Below, one piece after another: positions 1 through 7,157 of a stretch of 7,157 nucleotides of DNA. The position numbers and the translations under genes are program-made. The stretch comes from Deltaproteobacteria bacterium. GTDB taxonomy: Bacteria; Myxococcota; B64-G9. The notes below the pieces were generated by a model that saw only the letters and a program-made list of their open reading frames with translations, did not search any database and had not been told where the DNA came from. The DNA is taken from positions 1-7,157 of the forward strand of contig JAUVAM010000189.1 in NCBI GenBank assembly GCA_030591745.1, written 5' to 3'. Position 1 is the stretch's first letter; every line of letters starts with the position of its first letter.

Positions 1-538
1 AGTCCACGGTCTCCAACTCGGTCATCTTCTCGCCTTCGCCAAGGCCCAACCAGGTGGAACCCACTTCTCCGATGCCGTCGATGACCAGCACGGCCGCCTG
101 GTCGAAGGGAGAGACCAGGTAAGCGCTGGCGGCATGACAAAGGTGATGGCCAAGAAAGAAGAACTCCGCTTTGGGCATGCGTTCGAGCAGCTTGGCCTTG
201 GCGGTCATGTTGTGGGCGTGGAAGTTTCGCTCGCCGTCTTCGCTGCCCCAGCCCTCGGCGGGCTTGTCGGGCATGTCGAGGTGTGCTTTGAGGCGGAGGT
301 CCGGATCGAAGGAGTAGCCGATGCCGTCGACGTCTGCATAGTTCAGGCCGGCGTGTTGCAGGCAGAAATCGATGGAGGCCCAGGGCAGTTCGTCCGAGTT
401 GTCGATGAAGGATCGCTTGCCGTGGCGAATGCGATTAAATCGTTCTTCTTCCACGAAGGCCACCATGGTTCCGTCGACCAGCAAACAGGCGGCGGATTCA
501 TGATAGACGCTGTTGACGCCTAAGATGACTCGGCTCAT
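1..538 (-). CDS. Carbamoyltransferase, NodU/TobZ/CmcH family (N-terminal part, cut by window edge)
   Basis: An open frame begins at the ATG at 538-536 and runs 179 codons to the window edge without a stop. The translation starts MSRVILGVNSVYHESAACLL and carries the hallmarks of the carbamoyltransferase N-terminal domain (ASKHA fold): the His-Glu-Ser-Ala-Ala motif at residues 13-17, VEEERFNRIRH at 29-39, GHHLCHAASAY at 130-140 and VIDGIGE at 152-158. His131 and His135 form the HxxxH metal site known from TobZ and Kae1, and Asp154 lies 19 residues after the second His, as I recall for TobZ. Family members transfer a carbamoyl group from carbamoyl phosphate, through carbamoyl-adenylate, to a hydroxyl on a sugar or antibiotic precursor. 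They are usually about 500-620 residues, so roughly a third is visible and the C-terminal domain is missing. The start has GGGAG six bases upstream, and only one base separates it from the preceding AAA gene. The acceptor substrate is unknown. Family assignment is firm. Confidence 0.93.
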   Translation of the reverse strand, partial: MSRVILGVNSVYHESAACLLVDGTMVAFVEEERFNRIRHGKRSFIDNSDELPWASIDFCLQHAGLNYADVDGIGYSFDPDLRLKAHLDMPDKPAEGWGSEDGERNFHAHNMTAKAKLLERMPKAEFFFLGHHLCHAASAYLVSPFDQAAVLVIDGIGEVGSTWLGLGEGEKMTELETVD

Positions 539-539
539 G

Positions 540-2294
540 TCAATCTCCCACTGATAGCTTGTACTCGCGGAATCGCTGCAACAGGGCGGCGCGGCCTTTG
601 CCGGAGCTCAGTTCGTAGCGGTATTTTTCCGGCAGGAAGTTGCGGTCCGTGCATTCGATGACGGCCGCCAGGATCTGCACCATTTTTTCTTCCGAATCGG
701 CCGAGGGCATGAAGCCGTCCATGGCTTGTTGCAGGTGTTCTTTGCCCACGTCCTCGCTGCCGGCCAATAGCGCGATGCGCTGGGCCCGCGTGACCACTCC
801 CTCGATGTCGGCACCTGACAGGCGTATGTCATCTGGGATGTCGGGGACTTCTTCCGGGTCCACTTGTACTTTGTTTTTCTTGCCCAGAATGACGAACATC
901 TCTTTGAGTTCTTCTTTGTCCGCTGGATAGAAAAGAGGGATGTGTACCTCGCAGCGTCCCTGTCGCTTGATGTCGATGGGCAGCATGTCGGGCCGGCAGG
1001 TCAACAGGAACCACAGGATTTTGCCCCGGTAGTCGGTGTTGCCCATCTGGGACGCAAATTGGCCAAAGACCCGGCTTGAGGTGCCTGAGTCGCCTCCGCC
1101 GCCGCGGTTGCCCAACATGGCGTCGGCCTCGTCGATGATCACCGCCACCGGACCCATGACGCGTAGCACTTTGAGAATTTTCTCCAAGTTGCCCTCGGTC
1201 TCGCCGACATACTTGGAGCGAAAGTTCAAGAGCTTCAGGCAGGGAATGCCCACCGATCCGGCGTAGCATTCGGCCAAGAAGGTTTTGCCCGTGCCCACCG
1301 GGCCGCAGAAAAGATAACCCATGGGCACGGCATCCAAACGCCCGCGCTTGAGGAGATCCGCATCTTCCCGCAAGCGCTGCTTGGCCGCCTCGTGACCGAC
1401 CACCAGGTCCAAGGTGTGTGCCGGCTCGACGAATTCCACCAGGCCTTGGCACTGGCCTTCGATCATGCGCTTTTTGTAGACCTTGAGCGCGTCCATGCTG
1501 ATGCGCTTGTTGCCCCGGATGGCGCCCGAGACCAGGCCTTGCAAGTGCACCAAGGTCAACCCGGCGGTCAGGTCCGCCAAAAGCTCGGGGCCGACTTCGC
1601 ACAACTGATCAAAATCCCGGCCTGCTGCCGCCCACTGGATGTACTGGAGCCGTGCCTTGCGTTCCGGATAAGAGACTTCGATTTTTGTGGTGTGGGCGTT
1701 CTGTACAAGGGAGTCGTGCAGATCGCTCAGGCGCTCGGAAATGAGACAGAAAGCGAAGGGCACCTTCTTGAAATATGGGCTTTTGGACCAGTTGAGCAGC
1801 GTGGCCAGGTTGGCGGCTTGTTCACGAGCGGTGTGGGAAACCGATGCCGCCGGTGCCAGGAAGTGGGCATAGTCCAAGATCAAGGCCACCGAAGGCGGAT
1901 CGCCTTCCCTGAGAAGAACGAGTTCGAGATAGCGGTTGAGGACCGCCATGACCTTGCCCGGGCTACGGGTTTTTCTCAGTTCTTCAATCGGACCGATGAA
2001 GCGTTCGATGTGTTTGTGGATGCTGGACAGGCGTGAGGTGCTGGAGGCCAGTGCCCGTGGGCCGTGTACCTGGTCGTAGTAGATGACCGCGTCCCACTTG
2101 CCGAAAACCTGGGCGGCCAAGAACTCGGGCAGCATGGCGTAGCTCACGCCGTCCCGGCGTTCCGTGCGCACCAGATCGTTGACGTTGCCATGAATGATAA
2201 ACGTTTGGGAAGATCCGCTGGCGTGGGCTTCCGCGAGTTGCTGGGTCCAGGAGGGAAACCAGGTTTCCAGCCGGGCCTGTCTTTCGTTGGCCAT
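540..2294 (-). CDS. AAA ATPase with degenerate N-terminal ATPase-like half (Ycf46-like layout)
   Basis: This 584-residue protein has a classical AAA module in its C-terminal half. Walker A is GPVGTGKT (331-338) and Walker B is VAVIIDEAD (383-391, with Asp388 and Glu389). A pore-loop-like KYVGETE lies at 361-367. The second region of homology has two candidate arginine fingers (Arg444, Arg447), and the sensor-2 region is SGADIEG (493-499). The position that is normally the sensor-1 Asn in the ATNRPD motif is Cys433 (LTCRPD). Residues 1-290 contain a Walker-B-like strand (VALILDYAHFLAP, 136-148) and a helical segment GLTLVHLQGLVSGAI (245-259) but no Walker A. This resembles the Ycf46 arrangement of an inactive followed by an active ATPase domain. 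Such proteins act as hexameric remodelling ATPases; no protease domain or membrane segment is visible, so it should be cytoplasmic. The start has AGAGG nine bases upstream. Its target is unknown; the preceding membrane protein and the ABC importer are the obvious candidates. Confidence 0.93.
   Translation of the reverse strand: MANERQARLETWFPSWTQQLAEAHASGSSQTFIIHGNVNDLVRTERRDGVSYAMLPEFLAAQVFGKWDAVIYYDQVHGPRALASSTSRLSSIHKHIERFIGPIEELRKTRSPGKVMAVLNRYLELVLLREGDPPSVALILDYAHFLAPAASVSHTAREQAANLATLLNWSKSPYFKKVPFAFCLISERLSDLHDSLVQNAHTTKIEVSYPERKARLQYIQWAAAGRDFDQLCEVGPELLADLTAGLTLVHLQGLVSGAIRGNKRISMDALKVYKKRMIEGQCQGLVEFVEPAHTLDLVVGHEAAKQRLREDADLLKRGRLDAVPMGYLFCGPVGTGKTFLAECYAGSVGIPCLKLLNFRSKYVGETEGNLEKILKVLRVMGPVAVIIDEADAMLGNRGGGGDSGTSSRVFGQFASQMGNTDYRGKILWFLLTCRPDMLPIDIKRQGRCEVHIPLFYPADKEELKEMFVILGKKNKVQVDPEEVPDIPDDIRLSGADIEGVVTRAQRIALLAGSEDVGKEHLQQAMDGFMPSADSEEKMVQILAAVIECTDRNFLPEKYRYELSSGKGRAALLQRFREYKLSVGD
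545..549 (-). promoter_or_regulatory. Shine-Dalgarno (GGGAG) of the carbamoyltransferase gene
   Basis: GGGAG lies inside the final codons of the AAA ATPase gene, six bases before the carbamoyltransferase ATG at 538. It supports this start, which is further supported by the conserved N-terminal sequence ILGVNSVYHESAA following immediately. Confidence 0.75.
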
Positions 2295-2329
2295 GCGTTA
2301 GAACCTCTTGATGGCGCCGACCACTTAGG

Positions 2330-3217
2330 TCAGCTGTCGAACTGTTCCATTGACTCGTCGTCCAGCAGTTGGGGCGGCGCGTCGTCGGTTGTTTCCAGGC
2401 CGCTGAGGAACTCCAGTTCGCTCATCGCCTTTTCGGTCTGCTGCACCGAGGCGGACACGGTGTCCACCTCGCTGGTGATGGTGCTGGCGTCCTGGCGGTT
2501 GATGCCCATCTCGCCCAGGCTCGCGATTTTGGTGTAGAGCCTGTCCAACTCAAGCTCAATGAATTCGTGTTTTTCCGTGGCTCGGCTGTAGTTGTCGAGA
2601 CGCTTTTTCGAGGTGACCAAGGTGTCGGCCAGCGATTTTCTCTGCTTGGTCTTGGACATCGACTCATTCTCGACGGGCTGGCCCAGTTCCTCAAGGCGCT
2701 TCTCTGCTTTTTCCACATGCCTTTGGATTTCGTTTTCGTCGATGGTGTCGAAAAATTTTTCCAAAGCCCCTTTGGAATAGAGCAGCTTCAAGTAAAGCCA
2801 TAAAAGCCGATTGATGCCCGAAGACTGCATGTCCTCGATGATGCCCGTGTTTTGCTCGGGGCTGCCCTTGATGCCTTGGGAAATACGCTTCAAGTGGAAG
2901 CAGAGACCGCGCAGTTTTTCGAAGCGCTGACGGTCCTCGGGCTTCAGGGCCTCAAGCATGACGCGGCTTTTCTCGGCGGTGCGGGTGGCCTCCTGGCCTC
3001 TGTTGGCTTTGTGGGCTTCCGCGTCGATGGCCTTTTGGAACTTGGGGTGGGTGGCCAGACCCGCCAGGTAGACTACCTCGGCGGCTGCCACCAGGGGCAG
3101 GACCACGTCTGGATGACCGGAGACGAAGCCGATGGCCACGCCGGCCGCCATGGCCAGCAGGTTCCAATGCTGGATGAAAGCCCGCTTGATGTATTTCGTG
3201 AATTTGCCGCCCGCCAT
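2330..3217 (-). CDS. Uncharacterised membrane protein: two N-terminal TM segments and long helical tail
   Basis: I do not recognise the family of this 295-residue protein. After a short basic N-terminus (Lys5, Lys8, Lys11, Arg12) come two hydrophobic stretches, about 18-33 and 37-55, separated by a tight SGHPD turn. They would form a membrane hairpin with both ends in the cytoplasm. Residues 58-275 are highly charged, rich in Lys, Glu, Arg and Gln, and predicted by eye to be almost all helical, with heptad-like stretches around 150-180 and 195-270. The C-terminal 20 residues are acidic. No catalytic motif is apparent. It begins three bases after the ABC ATPase stop, with AAAGGA seven bases upstream of its ATG, and is followed by the AAA ATPase after 35 nt. 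A two-TM-plus-helices outline is also found in XpaC-like proteins, but I see no sequence motif that supports that assignment. A membrane adaptor or substrate for the AAA ATPase is a plausible inference. Confidence 0.88.
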   Translation of the reverse strand: MAGGKFTKYIKRAFIQHWNLLAMAAGVAIGFVSGHPDVVLPLVAAAEVVYLAGLATHPKFQKAIDAEAHKANRGQEATRTAEKSRVMLEALKPEDRQRFEKLRGLCFHLKRISQGIKGSPEQNTGIIEDMQSSGINRLLWLYLKLLYSKGALEKFFDTIDENEIQRHVEKAEKRLEELGQPVENESMSKTKQRKSLADTLVTSKKRLDNYSRATEKHEFIELELDRLYTKIASLGEMGINRQDASTITSEVDTVSASVQQTEKAMSELEFLSGLETTDDAPPQLLDDESMEQFDS

Positions 3218-3220
3218 GGC

Positions 3221-4102
3221 TCAGTCCTTTCCCTCCTCGAGCTGCTCGATGATGTCCCGAAGTTCGTAGACCGTGGTCTGGAAATCGGCCTCACGCTGCA
3301 TTTCCGCCGCCGGTCGGTCGGGCCGGGGGACCTTGATCTGTCTGAGCAAGGTGCCGGGTGATGAAGAGAGCACAAAGCAACGATCGCCCAGGTAGACGGC
3401 CTCGGTGATGTCGTGGGTCACGAAGAAGACCGTGCCTTCCACCTCGCGCCAAAGGCTGATGAGCAGATCCTGCATGTGCAAGCGCGTGCTGGGATCCAAT
3501 GCGCCAAAAGGCTCGTCCATCAGGATGATGCGGGGTTTCAGGATGAGGGTCCGGGCGATGGCCACGCGTTGCCGCATGCCGCCCGACAACTCGTGGGGGT
3601 ATTTGTGCTGATCGTTGCGTACGCTCAGGCCCACCTTGTGAATCCAGTAGCGGGCCTGTTCCAGGCGCTCACGCTTGGAGATCCCGCGACACTCAAGGCC
3701 GAAGGCCACGTTGTTGAGCACCGAGCGATTGTCAAAGGAGGTGTAGCCTTGAAAGACCATGCCCCGATCCGCCCCGGGTCCTTTGACTGATTTTTGCATG
3801 ACCAAGACTTCGCCTTCGGTGGGCGGATGCTGGGGGCTCAGACCAGCGATGAGTCTGAGGACGGTGGACTTGCCGCAGCCGGAAGGGCCCACCACGGTGA
3901 TGAACTCACCCAGTTCGGGCAGGTCCTCCACTTCGAAGGTGATGTCCTTGATGGCCGTGAAGGCATTGGGCGTGCCCGGGCTGTATGTCTTGGTCACGCC
4001 GCGGAATTCCACGACATTCGGCAGCTTCGTGTCCTCCGCTGGGGTTTTCTTCTTCTCTTGTGTTTCATTTTCGGTGGCTTTGTTGTTTTCCTGTTCGCTC
4101 AT
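3221..4102 (-). CDS. ABC importer ATP-binding subunit, nitrate/sulfonate/taurine (SsuB/TauB/NrtD) type
   Basis: This 293-residue protein is the motor subunit of the importer. All ABC motifs are intact: Walker A GPSGCGKST (72-80), Q-loop Gln118, signature LSGGMRQ (172-178), Walker B RIILMDEP (191-198, catalytic Glu197), D-loop ALD (201-203) and switch His230 in THD. The spacing and the context EPFGALDPSTR and THDITEAVYLGDR place it in the SsuB/TauB/NrtD group, which imports nitrate, sulfonates, taurine and similar small anions. Residues 1-27 are a charged extension rich in Lys, Glu, Asn and Thr ahead of the usual domain start near residue 30. The last 40 or so residues continue past the core as a charged helix. 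The start is well supported by a GGGAGGAGA Shine-Dalgarno within the 3' end of the permease gene, and the intergenic gap is three bases. It should act at the inner membrane with the upstream permease. The substrate cannot be told from this subunit. Confidence 0.96.
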   Translation of the reverse strand: MSEQENNKATENETQEKKKTPAEDTKLPNVVEFRGVTKTYSPGTPNAFTAIKDITFEVEDLPELGEFITVVGPSGCGKSTVLRLIAGLSPQHPPTEGEVLVMQKSVKGPGADRGMVFQGYTSFDNRSVLNNVAFGLECRGISKRERLEQARYWIHKVGLSVRNDQHKYPHELSGGMRQRVAIARTLILKPRIILMDEPFGALDPSTRLHMQDLLISLWREVEGTVFFVTHDITEAVYLGDRCFVLSSSPGTLLRQIKVPRPDRPAAEMQREADFQTTVYELRDIIEQLEEGKD

Positions 4103-4105
4103 GGC

Positions 4106-5242
4106 TTATCTCCTCCCATAGCGATAGGAGAACAGGGTTCGCTGGATCATAAAAAGGCCGCGATCAATGAAGAATGCCACCAGGGTCAAAAAGATAAGAA
4201 TCAGAGGGACGTCGTCGGTCATGCCCCGGCGTTGTGAGGTCAGGATCAGCCGGCCGATGCCGAGTTCGGCGTTGACCATTTCGGCCAAGATGATGTAGCC
4301 GAAAGCCAAACCGAAGAGCAGTCGTACCGAGTTGAAAATGTCCGGCATGGCCAGGGGCACCATGACTTTTGTCAGGACTTGAAAGCGATTGGCACCCAAA
4401 GTATAAGCCGTGTCCAAGTAGTCGTTTTTCACGTCCCTGATGGCCCGGGATGCATCAAAGAGGATAAAGGCCACACAGGCCATGAAGATGAAGGCCACCT
4501 TCTGTCCCTCGCCGATGCCGAAGAACAGCAAGGTGACGGGCACCAGAGCGGCGATGGGCACGTTGCGACCGAAGAGACTGATGGGGGCGAAGAATGCGTC
4601 GACGCGGGTGAAGGCACCGCAAAGAATACCCAGGGGTATGCCCACAAGTACAGCCAGCCCGAAGCCCTGCGCCACGCGCCACAGGCTTGCGAAAAGATTG
4701 CGCATCAGGGCTCGCTCGAACCACAGGCTGTGGAAATTGCCGAAGACTTCCTCCGGGCTGCCCATGGCCATGCGATTCAGGGCCCGCTCGTTGCCCTCGG
4801 GACCCCACCAGGGTCGGGAACTCAGATACCAGACCAAGCCGATCAGACTCAGGCAGGCCAGGACCATAAAAATCTTGCCCCAGATGGTGGCCGAGTCGCG
4901 GATTTGGAAGAAGCCCCGAAAGAAACCCCGAATCAAACCGGGTCGGCGCAGGGACTCGCGCGCTTGACGTGCCTCCTCCTCGGCTTCTTCCTTCTCTTTC
5001 TTGGCTTCGGCCGCTTTTTTTTCTTTGGTCTTCTCGTCGGATTCGAAGGCGGCCAGCGCCTCGGAAGCCGTATCGTTCAGAGGGGCTTCCGAGCTCGCTG
5101 GGGCCGCTTCAGCAGGCCCTTTGTCCTCGGTTTTGGCTTCGGCTTTGCCCTCGGGCTTGGCCTCAGATTTGACCTCGGGCTTGGCTTCGGGCTTGACCTC
5201 GGCCTTGCCTTGGGATTCGGGCTTGGGTGTATCTTTGCTCAT
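4106..5242 (-). CDS. ABC importer permease (SsuC/TauC type) with long Lys/Glu/Pro-rich N-terminal extension
   Basis: This 378-residue inner-membrane subunit forms the translocation pathway. Hydrophobic segments lie near 122-140, 188-210, 228-245, 248-264, 303-322 and 344-366. The cytoplasmic coupling loop, which contacts the ATPase, reads DTAYTLGANRFQVLTKVMVP at 277-296, matching the EAA-motif pattern (small residues, Gly283, then Pro296). This is the binding-protein-dependent permease family of nitrate, taurine and sulfonate importers, whose members are typically about 250-290 residues. The surplus is an N-terminal cytoplasmic extension of about 100 residues. Residues 12-39 are seven tandem [G/V/A]-K-[P/A/S/T]-E tetrads, and 66-98 is a dense Lys/Glu/Ala/Arg helix. 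The ATG lies one base after the substrate-binding gene stop, with a modest GGAAG nine bases upstream. I see no good alternative internal start that would remove the extension: the methionines at 126, 158 and 160 fall within or after the first membrane segment. Confidence 0.95.
   Translation of the reverse strand: MSKDTPKPESQGKAEVKPEAKPEVKSEAKPEGKAEAKTEDKGPAEAAPASSEAPLNDTASEALAAFESDEKTKEKKAAEAKKEKEEAEEEARQARESLRRPGLIRGFFRGFFQIRDSATIWGKIFMVLACLSLIGLVWYLSSRPWWGPEGNERALNRMAMGSPEEVFGNFHSLWFERALMRNLFASLWRVAQGFGLAVLVGIPLGILCGAFTRVDAFFAPISLFGRNVPIAALVPVTLLFFGIGEGQKVAFIFMACVAFILFDASRAIRDVKNDYLDTAYTLGANRFQVLTKVMVPLAMPDIFNSVRLLFGLAFGYIILAEMVNAELGIGRLILTSQRRGMTDDVPLILIFLTLVAFFIDRGLFMIQRTLFSYRYGRR
4109..4117 (-). 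promoter_or_regulatory. Strong Shine-Dalgarno (GGGAGGAGA) of the ABC ATPase gene
   Basis: GGGAGGAGA overlaps the last codons of the permease gene and sits 6 bases before the ATG at 4102-4100. Ribosomes ending on the permease would be placed directly on it, consistent with coupled synthesis of the two transporter subunits. It supports the start that includes the charged N-terminal extension. Confidence 0.8.
5126..5209 (-). repeat. Tandem 12-nt coding repeat in the permease gene
   Basis: Seven consecutive 12-nt units encode the tetrads GKAE, VKPE, AKPE, VKSE, AKPE, GKAE and AKTE (permease residues 12-39). On the plus strand the units read as variants of CTCGGGCTTGGC. A 16-base stretch beginning at 5149 recurs, with one mismatch, 24 nt away at 5173. 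The units are imperfect, so the array has diverged, but the register is unbroken. The encoded segment is charged, proline-interrupted and probably disordered in the cytoplasm. Confidence 0.85.
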
Positions 5243-5243
5243 C

Positions 5244-7004
5244 TCATTGGGCTTCCAATGGGTAGACTTTAACCTCCACGCGCCGGTTCTTGGCGTGGTT
5301 ATTTAGATCCTTTGCGTCCGCTGCTTGTTGCCAACCCATGCCCTGGGTGGCGAACTGGTTGGCCTGCAGGCTCTTGAACTTTTTGACCAGGGCTTCCTTG
5401 ACGGCGGCGGCGCGGCGTGCGGAGAGCTCGCGCACGGCCTCGAAGGGCACCTGTCCCTTCATGGAGTTATCCGTGTGCCCCTCGATGACGATGCGTGCAG
5501 CGCCGTACTGGCCGGACATGCGACCGATCTCTTCCAGGATGAAGTCCACGTTGGGATCGTAGGCCACCTTGAGGACTTTACCGTTGACGCGCTTGTCCAC
5601 TTTCATGCCCAAATCCCAGGAGTTGGGGAAGAAGTGGACCACGATGGTCTTGGTGAGGATCTCACCCGATTCGGCTTTGATTGTCGTGACGCTTCTGGGC
5701 GTGAAGCGGACCGTGTACTCGTCTTTTTGCTTGGCGAATTTTTCTTCCTTGCCCAGCTTTTTGATGATGGAGAAGTCCATCACCTGATCGAAGGCGGTCT
5801 TCTGGGTGACCTGGCCGATGCGCTTGTAGAGGTAGTAAGCCGTGTCCCATGTGCGTTCGAAGTTGGCCGGGTTGTTGCGGTTCAAGAAGAACTCGCGGTT
5901 TTCGGCGTAGTTGGTGCTGTGCGCGTCGCCAAGCATCTCAAAGGCTTCGGTGGGCGGGATGCTGTAACCCTTGCCCATCATATCCGCAACTTTTTTCTTG
6001 TTGTTGGGATCCTTCAGGTCTTCCATGGCCTGGAAGATGCCGCGCACCAAGCCTTCGACCACCGCCGGGTGATCATTGGCAAAGTCAGCTCGGGCGAACC
6101 AGACGTCGGCGATGAGCTTGTTGGCGGTTTCGGTGCTGACCAAAAGCTTGTTGCCCTTGATCTTGGAGAGATTGTAGATGTCAGGTGCCCAGGAGACGCA
6201 GGCCGAGATGTTCTTGTCGGCATTGAAGGCCGCCGCGGCCTGGAAGGCATCCTGGGTGAACTTGAATTTGACCTCTGAGGGCTGCACGCCGGCGTTGATC
6301 AAGGCGTTCAGCACAAAGTAATGGGAAGGCGAATTCTGGGCCAAGACGATGGTCTTGCCGCGCAGGCCGCCGATGTTCTTGATGCCGCCACGGGCCACGA
6401 TGCCGTCGCCGCCATTGGACCAGTCCACCTGTTGGTAAATGCGGGGCATGACGCGCGGATCCTTGCGCAGTTGCTCGATGAACAGGGGCACCATATCCAG
6501 GGTGGCCCAGCCGATATGCACATTGCCGGTGGCGTAAGCGTCACGCATGGCGACCGGATCGTCGATGAGCACGAGTTCTACCTTGAACTTCTTGCCGCCC
6601 GGCGCGGTCCATTCTTTGCCGGCCTTGAAGCCCTGGTTGGCCCATACGATCGGGGCCCAGCCTGCCCAGACATTCAGGGCGAAGCGAATCGTGTTGTCTT
6701 TCATGGGCTGGTAATTGGACGTGCCCTTGACTTCCGGCAGCTTGGCCGCCGCGACGAAGGAGTATTCCTTGACCGTGGTGGGCGCGTTGGTGTCCGGTGC
6801 TTCCAGCGCCTGCTTGTCGCCGTCGGCTACGGCCTTGTCTCCACCGGCTTTGGCGTTGTTCAGGTCGTCTTTGCTGATGTTGCCTGTGATTTCTTTTTTG
6901 CCTTCAGGGGCTAAGATGCCAGCCTTATACAGGGCGAAGCCGCCCAAGCCCAACACCACCAGAATGACTATGACCCAGAATCCCGCTTTTGGTTTGCCCG
7001 CCAT
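5244..7004 (-). CDS. Membrane-anchored NMT1/TauA-type substrate-binding protein fused to an OmpA-like peptidoglycan-binding domain
   Basis: This 586-residue protein joins two modules. Residues 8-29 are a hydrophobic signal anchor after a basic start (Lys4, Lys6), with no lipobox cysteine. A low-complexity linker follows (about 30-80). Residues 104-375 match the type-2 periplasmic binding fold of the NMT1/TauA group: IRFALNVWAGWAP (106-118), WSNGGDGIVA (195-204), LRGKTIVLAQNSPSHYFVLN (214-233), and a late DFANDHPAVVEGLVRGIFQAM (307-327). Residues 452-583 form an OmpA-like domain with IEGHTDNS (506-513), LSARRAAAV (527-535) and NRRVEVKV (573-580). Asp512 and Arg531 occupy the diaminopimelate-contacting positions known for OmpA. 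It should capture a small solute and deliver it to the permease encoded next, while bound to both inner membrane and wall. Length is nearly twice that of a normal binding protein. AGGAGG sits five bases before the ATG. The ligand is unknown; similar fusions are sometimes named phosphate-binding/OmpA proteins, but nothing here shows phosphate specificity. Confidence 0.95.
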   Translation of the reverse strand: MAGKPKAGFWVIVILVVLGLGGFALYKAGILAPEGKKEITGNISKDDLNNAKAGGDKAVADGDKQALEAPDTNAPTTVKEYSFVAAAKLPEVKGTSNYQPMKDNTIRFALNVWAGWAPIVWANQGFKAGKEWTAPGGKKFKVELVLIDDPVAMRDAYATGNVHIGWATLDMVPLFIEQLRKDPRVMPRIYQQVDWSNGGDGIVARGGIKNIGGLRGKTIVLAQNSPSHYFVLNALINAGVQPSEVKFKFTQDAFQAAAAFNADKNISACVSWAPDIYNLSKIKGNKLLVSTETANKLIADVWFARADFANDHPAVVEGLVRGIFQAMEDLKDPNNKKKVADMMGKGYSIPPTEAFEMLGDAHSTNYAENREFFLNRNNPANFERTWDTAYYLYKRIGQVTQKTAFDQVMDFSIIKKLGKEEKFAKQKDEYTVRFTPRSVTTIKAESGEILTKTIVVHFFPNSWDLGMKVDKRVNGKVLKVAYDPNVDFILEEIGRMSGQYGAARIVIEGHTDNSMKGQVPFEAVRELSARRAAAVKEALVKKFKSLQANQFATQGMGWQQAADAKDLNNHAKNRRVEVKVYPLEAQ

Positions 7005-7067
7005 GGTTCCCTCCTAGAAATTACGATAGATGTTCAAAAACGAAAGTTTCAGGTTGGTTCAAAATAA
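7005..7067 (-). other. 63-nt intergenic spacer before the importer genes
   Basis: This is the longest gap between genes in the window and is A+T-rich compared with its surroundings. It holds the Shine-Dalgarno of the substrate-binding gene. It also holds two direct copies of GTTCAAAA (plus strand 7032-7039 and 7057-7064, 25 nt apart). I see no stable hairpin followed by a T-run, so no intrinsic terminator separates the upstream gene from the importer. No convincing pair of -35 and -10 boxes was found. Read-through from the upstream gene is the simplest reading. Confidence 0.5.
7010..7015 (-). promoter_or_regulatory. Strong Shine-Dalgarno (AGGAGG) of the substrate-binding gene
   Basis: AGGAGG lies five bases before the ATG at 7004-7002. 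It is among the strongest ribosome-binding sites in the window and fixes the start of the binding protein so that the basic residues and signal anchor are included. Confidence 0.85.
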
Positions 7068-7157
7068 CTACTCGCCGATTTTTTCGGTTACTTTTTCCTC
7101 GATGGGCGCGTCTTTCTGCTCGTCGTCCATTTCCATCTCGGGCCCCAAGGCCTTGAC
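7068..7157 (-). CDS. C-terminal end of an upstream gene, product unknown
   Basis: Reading from the window edge, 29 codons end at a TAG at 7070-7068: VKALGPEMEMDDEQ followed by a further acidic, Glu- and Lys-rich tail ending in KIGE. Nothing in this fragment identifies a family. Coding is supported by the open frame, by a composition like the charged tails of the downstream proteins, and by same-strand placement 63 nt ahead of the substrate-binding gene. The 5' end and true length lie outside the window. Confidence 0.6.
   Translation of the reverse strand, partial: VKALGPEMEMDDEQKDAPIEEKVTEKIGE

Follow-up and report, generated by a model that had tools for sequence, protein, structure and literature searches.

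What does an operon do in which the genes of an apparently complete solute importer run straight into genes for a membrane coiled-coil protein, an AAA ATPase and a carbamoyltransferase? The question is raised by contig JAUVAM010000189.1 (assembly GCA_030591745.1) of a Deltaproteobacteria bacterium placed in the Myxococcota, analysed here over positions 1 to 7,157 (the window, 7,157 nt). The window is predicted to hold most of an operon that maintains the bacterial inner membrane. We propose, with moderate confidence, that a wall-tethered sensor/ATP-binding cassette (ABC) unit controls membrane remodelling by PspA and the AAA protein, and that this lineage has added the carbamoyltransferase and a radical SAM partner, which would act on a small molecule. 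The original prediction regarded the whole as an undescribed system; this does not hold for the core operon, which appears in passages of Ravi et al. 2024 (PMC11237479) and has thus been known as a prediction since 2024. The addition of two enzymes in this lineage looks new.

The arrangement itself is as first described. A listing of open reading frames reproduces six tandem minus-strand genes with gaps of 1, 3, 3, 35 and 1 nt, and Pfam and NCBIfam return the expected families for five of them (NMT1/SsuA-like plus OmpA, BPD_transp_1, ABC_tran, AAA and Carbam_trans_N). The window contains no sigma-70-like promoter (shuffled sequences have a mean of 1.9), the five terminator-like sites on the minus strand are all intragenic, and the 35-nt gap could form a weak hairpin with no U run (z -1.3). 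All six genes of the original set are present, but the set omitted an upstream PspA/IM30 gene, of which the window retains the 3' end, as well as the radical SAM gene that relatives have behind the carbamoyltransferase. The nearest relative contig, JAFCZJ010000034.1 (L001; genomes and loci of the survey carry G and L numbers), encodes proteins 91-98% identical to those of the window, and the complete version of the truncated gene (L001:5170-5958) matches PspA/IM30 (PF04012, E 2.3e-9). Recognition of PspA, overlooked earlier, changes the interpretation. In two relatives PspA is closely preceded by a gene for elongation factor P (L001:4445-5086; L189:6804-7379).

Conservation of the core was assessed at loci of 37 genomes encoding the substrate-binding protein (SBP) fused to an OmpA domain (SBP-OmpA). 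These come from the GTDB phylum of the window (some of them metagenome-assembled genomes under Myxococcota/Myxococcales titles), from a second phylum, to which G006 and G009 belong, and from G010. The order PspA–SBP-OmpA–permease–ATPase–CC–AAA, where CC is the coiled-coil protein, is conserved, and because it recurs in many genomes it is not due to chance. Gene neighbourhoods, the check proposed with the original prediction, show this order in two GTDB phyla at about 30% protein identity; the importer genes, the two-transmembrane-helix (TM) coiled-coil gene and the AAA gene are indeed a conserved unit. Same-strand genes within 9 kb include the permease at 35 of the 37 loci, the ABC ATPase at 32, CC at 30, PspA at 19 and AAA at 16, with the radical SAM gene at five and the carbamoyltransferase at two; G002, G003 and G009 are undercounted, their loci being spread across contigs. 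SBP-OmpA was found in 0 of 297 genomes of G010's phylum at 1e-40, an insensitive search that missed the divergent SBP-OmpA of G010 itself.

PspA and AAA are gained or lost together at these loci. After ten loci were dropped for contig ends, 27 could be scored: 15 have both genes, ten have neither, two have PspA only (G018 and G009, the latter with its AAA on another contig) and none has AAA only. Relaxed searches of the 16 loci scored as lacking PspA and AAA still recovered neither (PspA at E<=1, AAA at E<=1e-3). Directly 5' of SBP-OmpA, three loci without PspA encode a different protein of 211-234 aa with a similar start sequence (L194:6849-7529, L197:10681-11316, L200:6335-7039).

The ABC part, by comparison, is exchangeable. 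We fetched 40 AAA neighbourhoods from the window's phylum, of which three (L048-L050) are window-type operons. On the same strand, the 37 others contain an FtsX/MacB-type permease in 27 cases, its ATPase in 26 and a protein kinase in 30; the importer permease occurs in none. Of the 28 with sufficient sequence (13 loci were extended upstream), 26 have PspA upstream of AAA; it is missing in G062 and G170, and nine contigs are too short to score. Pfam analysis of one FtsX-type locus, a Myxococcota version (L053:934-11112), gives the order PspA – SBP – CC – unknown 527-aa protein – ABC ATPase – FtsX permease – Ser/Thr kinase – AAA, with an SBP that lacks OmpA. Since the transporter type is swapped at other AAA loci, SBP, CC, PspA and AAA persist while the ABC changes. 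A further form has no recognised ABC genes: CC adjoins an SBP_bac_11–VWA fusion in L007, L008, L010 and L011 (in L011 the VWA part alone was recognised), and searches at E<=1e-30 recovered no AAA of this family from the genomes of L007, L008 and L011. The exchange argues for a possible role of the SBP/ABC genes in signalling, not in nutrient uptake. If so, many proteins annotated as 'phosphate ABC transporter substrate-binding/OmpA' would need to be reinterpreted. A remote subtype (L045:164-10568 and L162:1012-10069, with AAAs 65% identical to each other) has the order VWA – SBP-OmpA – unknown – PspA – permease – ATPase – AAA – radical SAM, and L045 has an additional free SBP.

The individual proteins suggest how such a system might work. 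The topology we infer for SBP-OmpA would tether it to the inner membrane through an N-terminal hydrophobic segment (residues about 8-28, a TM call made by eye) and to the cell wall through its OmpA domain, which matches Omp38 (3td3, E 2.5e-9) and retains the GHTDN and LS..RA stretches. From there it would inform the ABC permease–ATPase and CC of the state of wall and membrane or of a ligand in the periplasm. This unit would in turn set the assembly of PspA, the ESCRT-III-like membrane-coating protein, and the AAA protein, which has a p97-like tandem fold with no Walker A in its first module, would spend ATP in a p97/Vps4-like manner to extract or recycle PspA or CC subunits. The carbamoyltransferase and its radical SAM partner would act on a small-molecule substrate as an add-on of this lineage. 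An ATPase working at the membrane beside a transporter, as the original prediction had it, is still the best reading. How bacterial PspA-type ESCRT-III assemblies are disassembled is, to our knowledge, an open question, and an AAA family gained and lost with PspA is a concrete candidate for this activity. AAA is found in 121 of 195 genomes of the window's phylum at E<=1e-100. Plasmid relatives in Aneurinibacillus and Paenibacillus reach at best 28% identity and sit amid hypothetical genes, with partners not annotated.

At E 1e-3, CC (195 homologues) has no match among Pfam, NCBIfam or PADLOC families, and its AlphaFold2 model is all-helical (pLDDT 81.6). In G008's phylum, CC occurs in one of 148 genomes, G008 itself. 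PspA, Vipp1 and Snf7 chains are absent among the fold-search matches listed for CC, from which we draw nothing.

Table 1. Features of the window, with supporting matches.
Feature	Coordinates	Strand	Length or extent	Support
PspA/IM30-family gene, 3' end	7068..7157	-	29 codons + stop	last residues identical to L001:5170-5958
SBP-OmpA: SsuA/NMT1-like domain and C-terminal OmpA-like peptidoglycan-binding domain	5244..7004	-	586 aa	Pfam/NCBIfam
OmpA domain of SBP-OmpA	5286..5501	-	residues 502-573	PF00691 E 1.3e-10
TauC/SsuC-type ABC permease, long charged N-terminal extension	4106..5242	-	378 aa	PF00528 E 6.1e-21; SaoP 143 bits (cut-off 295)
TauB/SsuB-type ABC ATPase	3221..4102	-	293 aa	PF00005 E 8.8e-27; PRK11248 206 bits (cut-off 357)
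CC: N-terminal hydrophobic helical hairpin, then long helices	2330..3217	-	295 aa	TM helices inferred from hydrophobicity
Tandem AAA protein: AAA-like N-terminal module lacking Walker A, then a C-terminal AAA module that keeps its motifs intact	540..2294	-	584 aa	
Catalytic AAA domain	936..1313	-		
NodU/TobZ-type carbamoyltransferase, truncated by the window edge	2..538	-	N-terminal 179 residues	PF02543 E 1.6e-20

The carbamoyltransferase is the weakest link of the proposed system. In its full-length relative, L001:12680-14434, both Carbam_trans domains are present, and the match to TobZ (3ver, E 6.4e-84) extends over 574 residues. Eight nucleotides after it in L001 lies the radical SAM gene, whose product scores 206.2 bits against TIGR01210 (RaSEA) over residues 15-326, under the cut-off of 212.15. 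A carbamoyltransferase follows AAA in four of the six loci nearest the window (G001, G002, G004 and G005, not G003 or G006); the complete pair stands directly behind AAA only in G001, G002 and G004, G005 having the carbamoyltransferase start there. A core role was considered for the carbamoyltransferase and rejected: it is beside the SBP in two of the 37 SBP-OmpA loci (G001, G004), and otherwise behind AAA on a second contig (G002) or present there as a start only (G005). The pair is compact, with a spacing of 23 nt or less in eight of nine genomes that have both genes on one contig (G001, G002, G003, G004, G018, G163, G164 and G672); the spacing is 1.8 kb in G005, and the genes are at separate contig ends in G009. 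In G003, G018, G163, G164 and G672 the pair is on contigs other than that of the operon. Because it sits elsewhere in other genomes, the carbamoyltransferase is best seen as accessory; what survives of its originally proposed membership is that the pair tracks OmpA-fused SBPs across genomes. In two operons that lack the carbamoyltransferase, the gene immediately 3' of AAA encodes a similar small protein of 92-94 aa (L101:12396-12674, L103:4473-4757).

The pair could be a passenger, an unrelated two-gene module inserted behind AAA in one clade and co-transcribed by accident, and we regard this as a real, if lesser, possibility. Linkage to AAA is confined to G001, G002, G004, G005 and the window, and the module is located elsewhere in other genomes. 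Set against this is the co-occurrence with SBP-OmpA at genome level, drawn from searches of at most 198 genomes per phylum with relatedness uncorrected. Among 193 genomes of the window's phylum, nine have the radical SAM gene and 57 have any carbamoyltransferase; the close type (54% or more) is present in eight, all within those nine. All eight pair genomes fall within the 41 that have an OmpA-fused SBP, seven of them within the 12 with a close-type SBP, and the ninth radical SAM genome, G013, has a divergent SBP-OmpA operon. The second phylum has the radical SAM gene in four of 176 genomes, each of which belongs to the 14 (of 188) with SBP-OmpA, and two of the four (G672, G009) have a close carbamoyltransferase. 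Two further radical SAM arrangements at SBP-OmpA loci also speak against a passenger. A divergent gene lies directly 3' of AAA in G010 (108.8 bits against TIGR01210) and G013, and in G618 (L166:7417-10259) three genes lie upstream of SBP-OmpA: a divergent radical SAM gene, one that is methyltransferase-like and one of unknown type.

It is rather unlikely, in our judgement, that the operon encodes an ordinary TauABC/SsuABC-like importer with a wall- and membrane-tethered SBP, PspA and AAA being housekeeping protection of the transporter. The ABC genes have intact ABC motifs and seem to make up a full importer, their best family matches are taurine, sulfonate and nitrate importers, the closest solved SBP is TauA (6ssy, E 4.8e-10), and the importer and/or CC stand without PspA and AAA at 10 of the 27 scorable loci. 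Against these points, (i) bit scores are far under the family cut-offs; (ii) of the other AAA loci retrieved from the phylum, most have an FtsX/MacB-type ABC in place of the importer; (iii) CC adjoins an SBP–VWA protein with no ABC; and (iv) Pfam/NCBIfam scans of selected genes recognised no sulfonate catabolic genes beside the operon. The control of PspA–AAA remodelling by the sensor/ABC unit has to be weighed against the intact importer, which may in fact transport, and against the 10 loci, which show that PspA–AAA is not obligatory. Other points also count against it. The custom profiles used to score the 37 SBP-OmpA loci, and PspA at the other AAA loci, drew part of their seeds from loci that were then counted. 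Relatedness is ignored both in the association of PspA with AAA (Fisher P 7.8e-6) and in that of the pair with OmpA-fused SBPs (hypergeometric P 2.3e-6 for the 41 genomes, 3.5e-9 for the 12 close-type). A reading of CC as an ESCRT-III/PspA relative is not supported here, with an hhalign probability of 0.3% against these PspA proteins and no backing from structure prediction or fold search.

We also think it unlikely that SBP-OmpA/ABC has a ligand or target produced or modified by the carbamoyltransferase–radical SAM pair, an arrangement that would unite all parts in one biosynthesis and sensing system. The tight spacing of the pair, the presence of an OmpA-fused SBP in every pair genome (8/8 in the window's phylum; 4/4 for radical SAM in the second) and the radical SAM genes at the G010, G013 and G618 loci would fit. 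The location of pair and operon on different contigs does not, nor do the 33 of 41 SBP-OmpA genomes of one phylum sample that lack the pair, or G361, where a radical SAM relative stands without any of the components around it. Mapped onto a tree of 28 SBP-OmpA proteins, the label for the pair requires five changes, at least three of them forced (5 of 500 shuffles were equally low). More doubtful still is a fuller scheme, in which AAA would be a dedicated Vps4/p97-like PspA disassembly ATPase switched by a wall-tethered solute or distance sensor through an importer-type, a MacB-type or no ABC, the carbamoyltransferase and RaSEA-like enzyme supplying or editing the sensed molecule. Anti-phage defence was rejected, as PADLOC returned just generic AAA/ABC/MotB-like matches.

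The closest known system is that of Ravi et al. 2024 (PMC11237479), passages of which describe operons with PspA and TM-bearing Snf7 homologues, an ABC ATPase, a permease and a PBPB plus OmpA protein, and an AAA protein whose N-terminal AAA copy is inactive. The window shares PspA, the two-domain AAA with inactive N-terminal copy, the ABC ATPase, the permease and PBPB plus OmpA. If it also has a counterpart of the TM-bearing Snf7 homologue, CC would be the candidate. The authors proposed ATP-dependent membrane remodelling tied to solute transport, the same membrane-remodelling reading that we reach for the core. The terms carbamoyl, radical SAM, RaSEA and VWA occur 0 times in the main text of that paper, and its passages on these operons do not include the FtsX/MacB-type swap, the SBP–VWA form or the joint gain and loss of PspA and AAA. 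Literature searches found no paper linking PspA, carbamoyltransferase, AAA+ and OmpA; those for carbamoyltransferase with radical SAM, NodU or gene neighbourhood gave nothing evidently related, judged from listings.

Vps4 has a single AAA domain and an MIT domain, whereas the window protein is a tandem AAA like p97/Rix7 with no MIT match in Pfam. The binding-protein, permease and ATPase families are those of TauABC/SsuABC, but the SBP is OmpA-fused and predicted to be membrane-anchored, and scores against the taurine models are 206 bits (cut-off 357) for the ATPase, 100 (342) for the permease and 47 (490) for the SBP. The carbamoyltransferase has both Carbam_trans domains in common with TobZ/NodU, scores 124 bits against NodU NF041651 (cut-off 1000) and is here paired with a radical SAM gene. 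RaSEA is the radical SAM enzyme of archaeosine biosynthesis, whereas the gene here is bacterial and its product scores below the family cut-off. The carbamoyltransferase–RaSEA-like pair is an unusual two-enzyme extension of a core known as a prediction.

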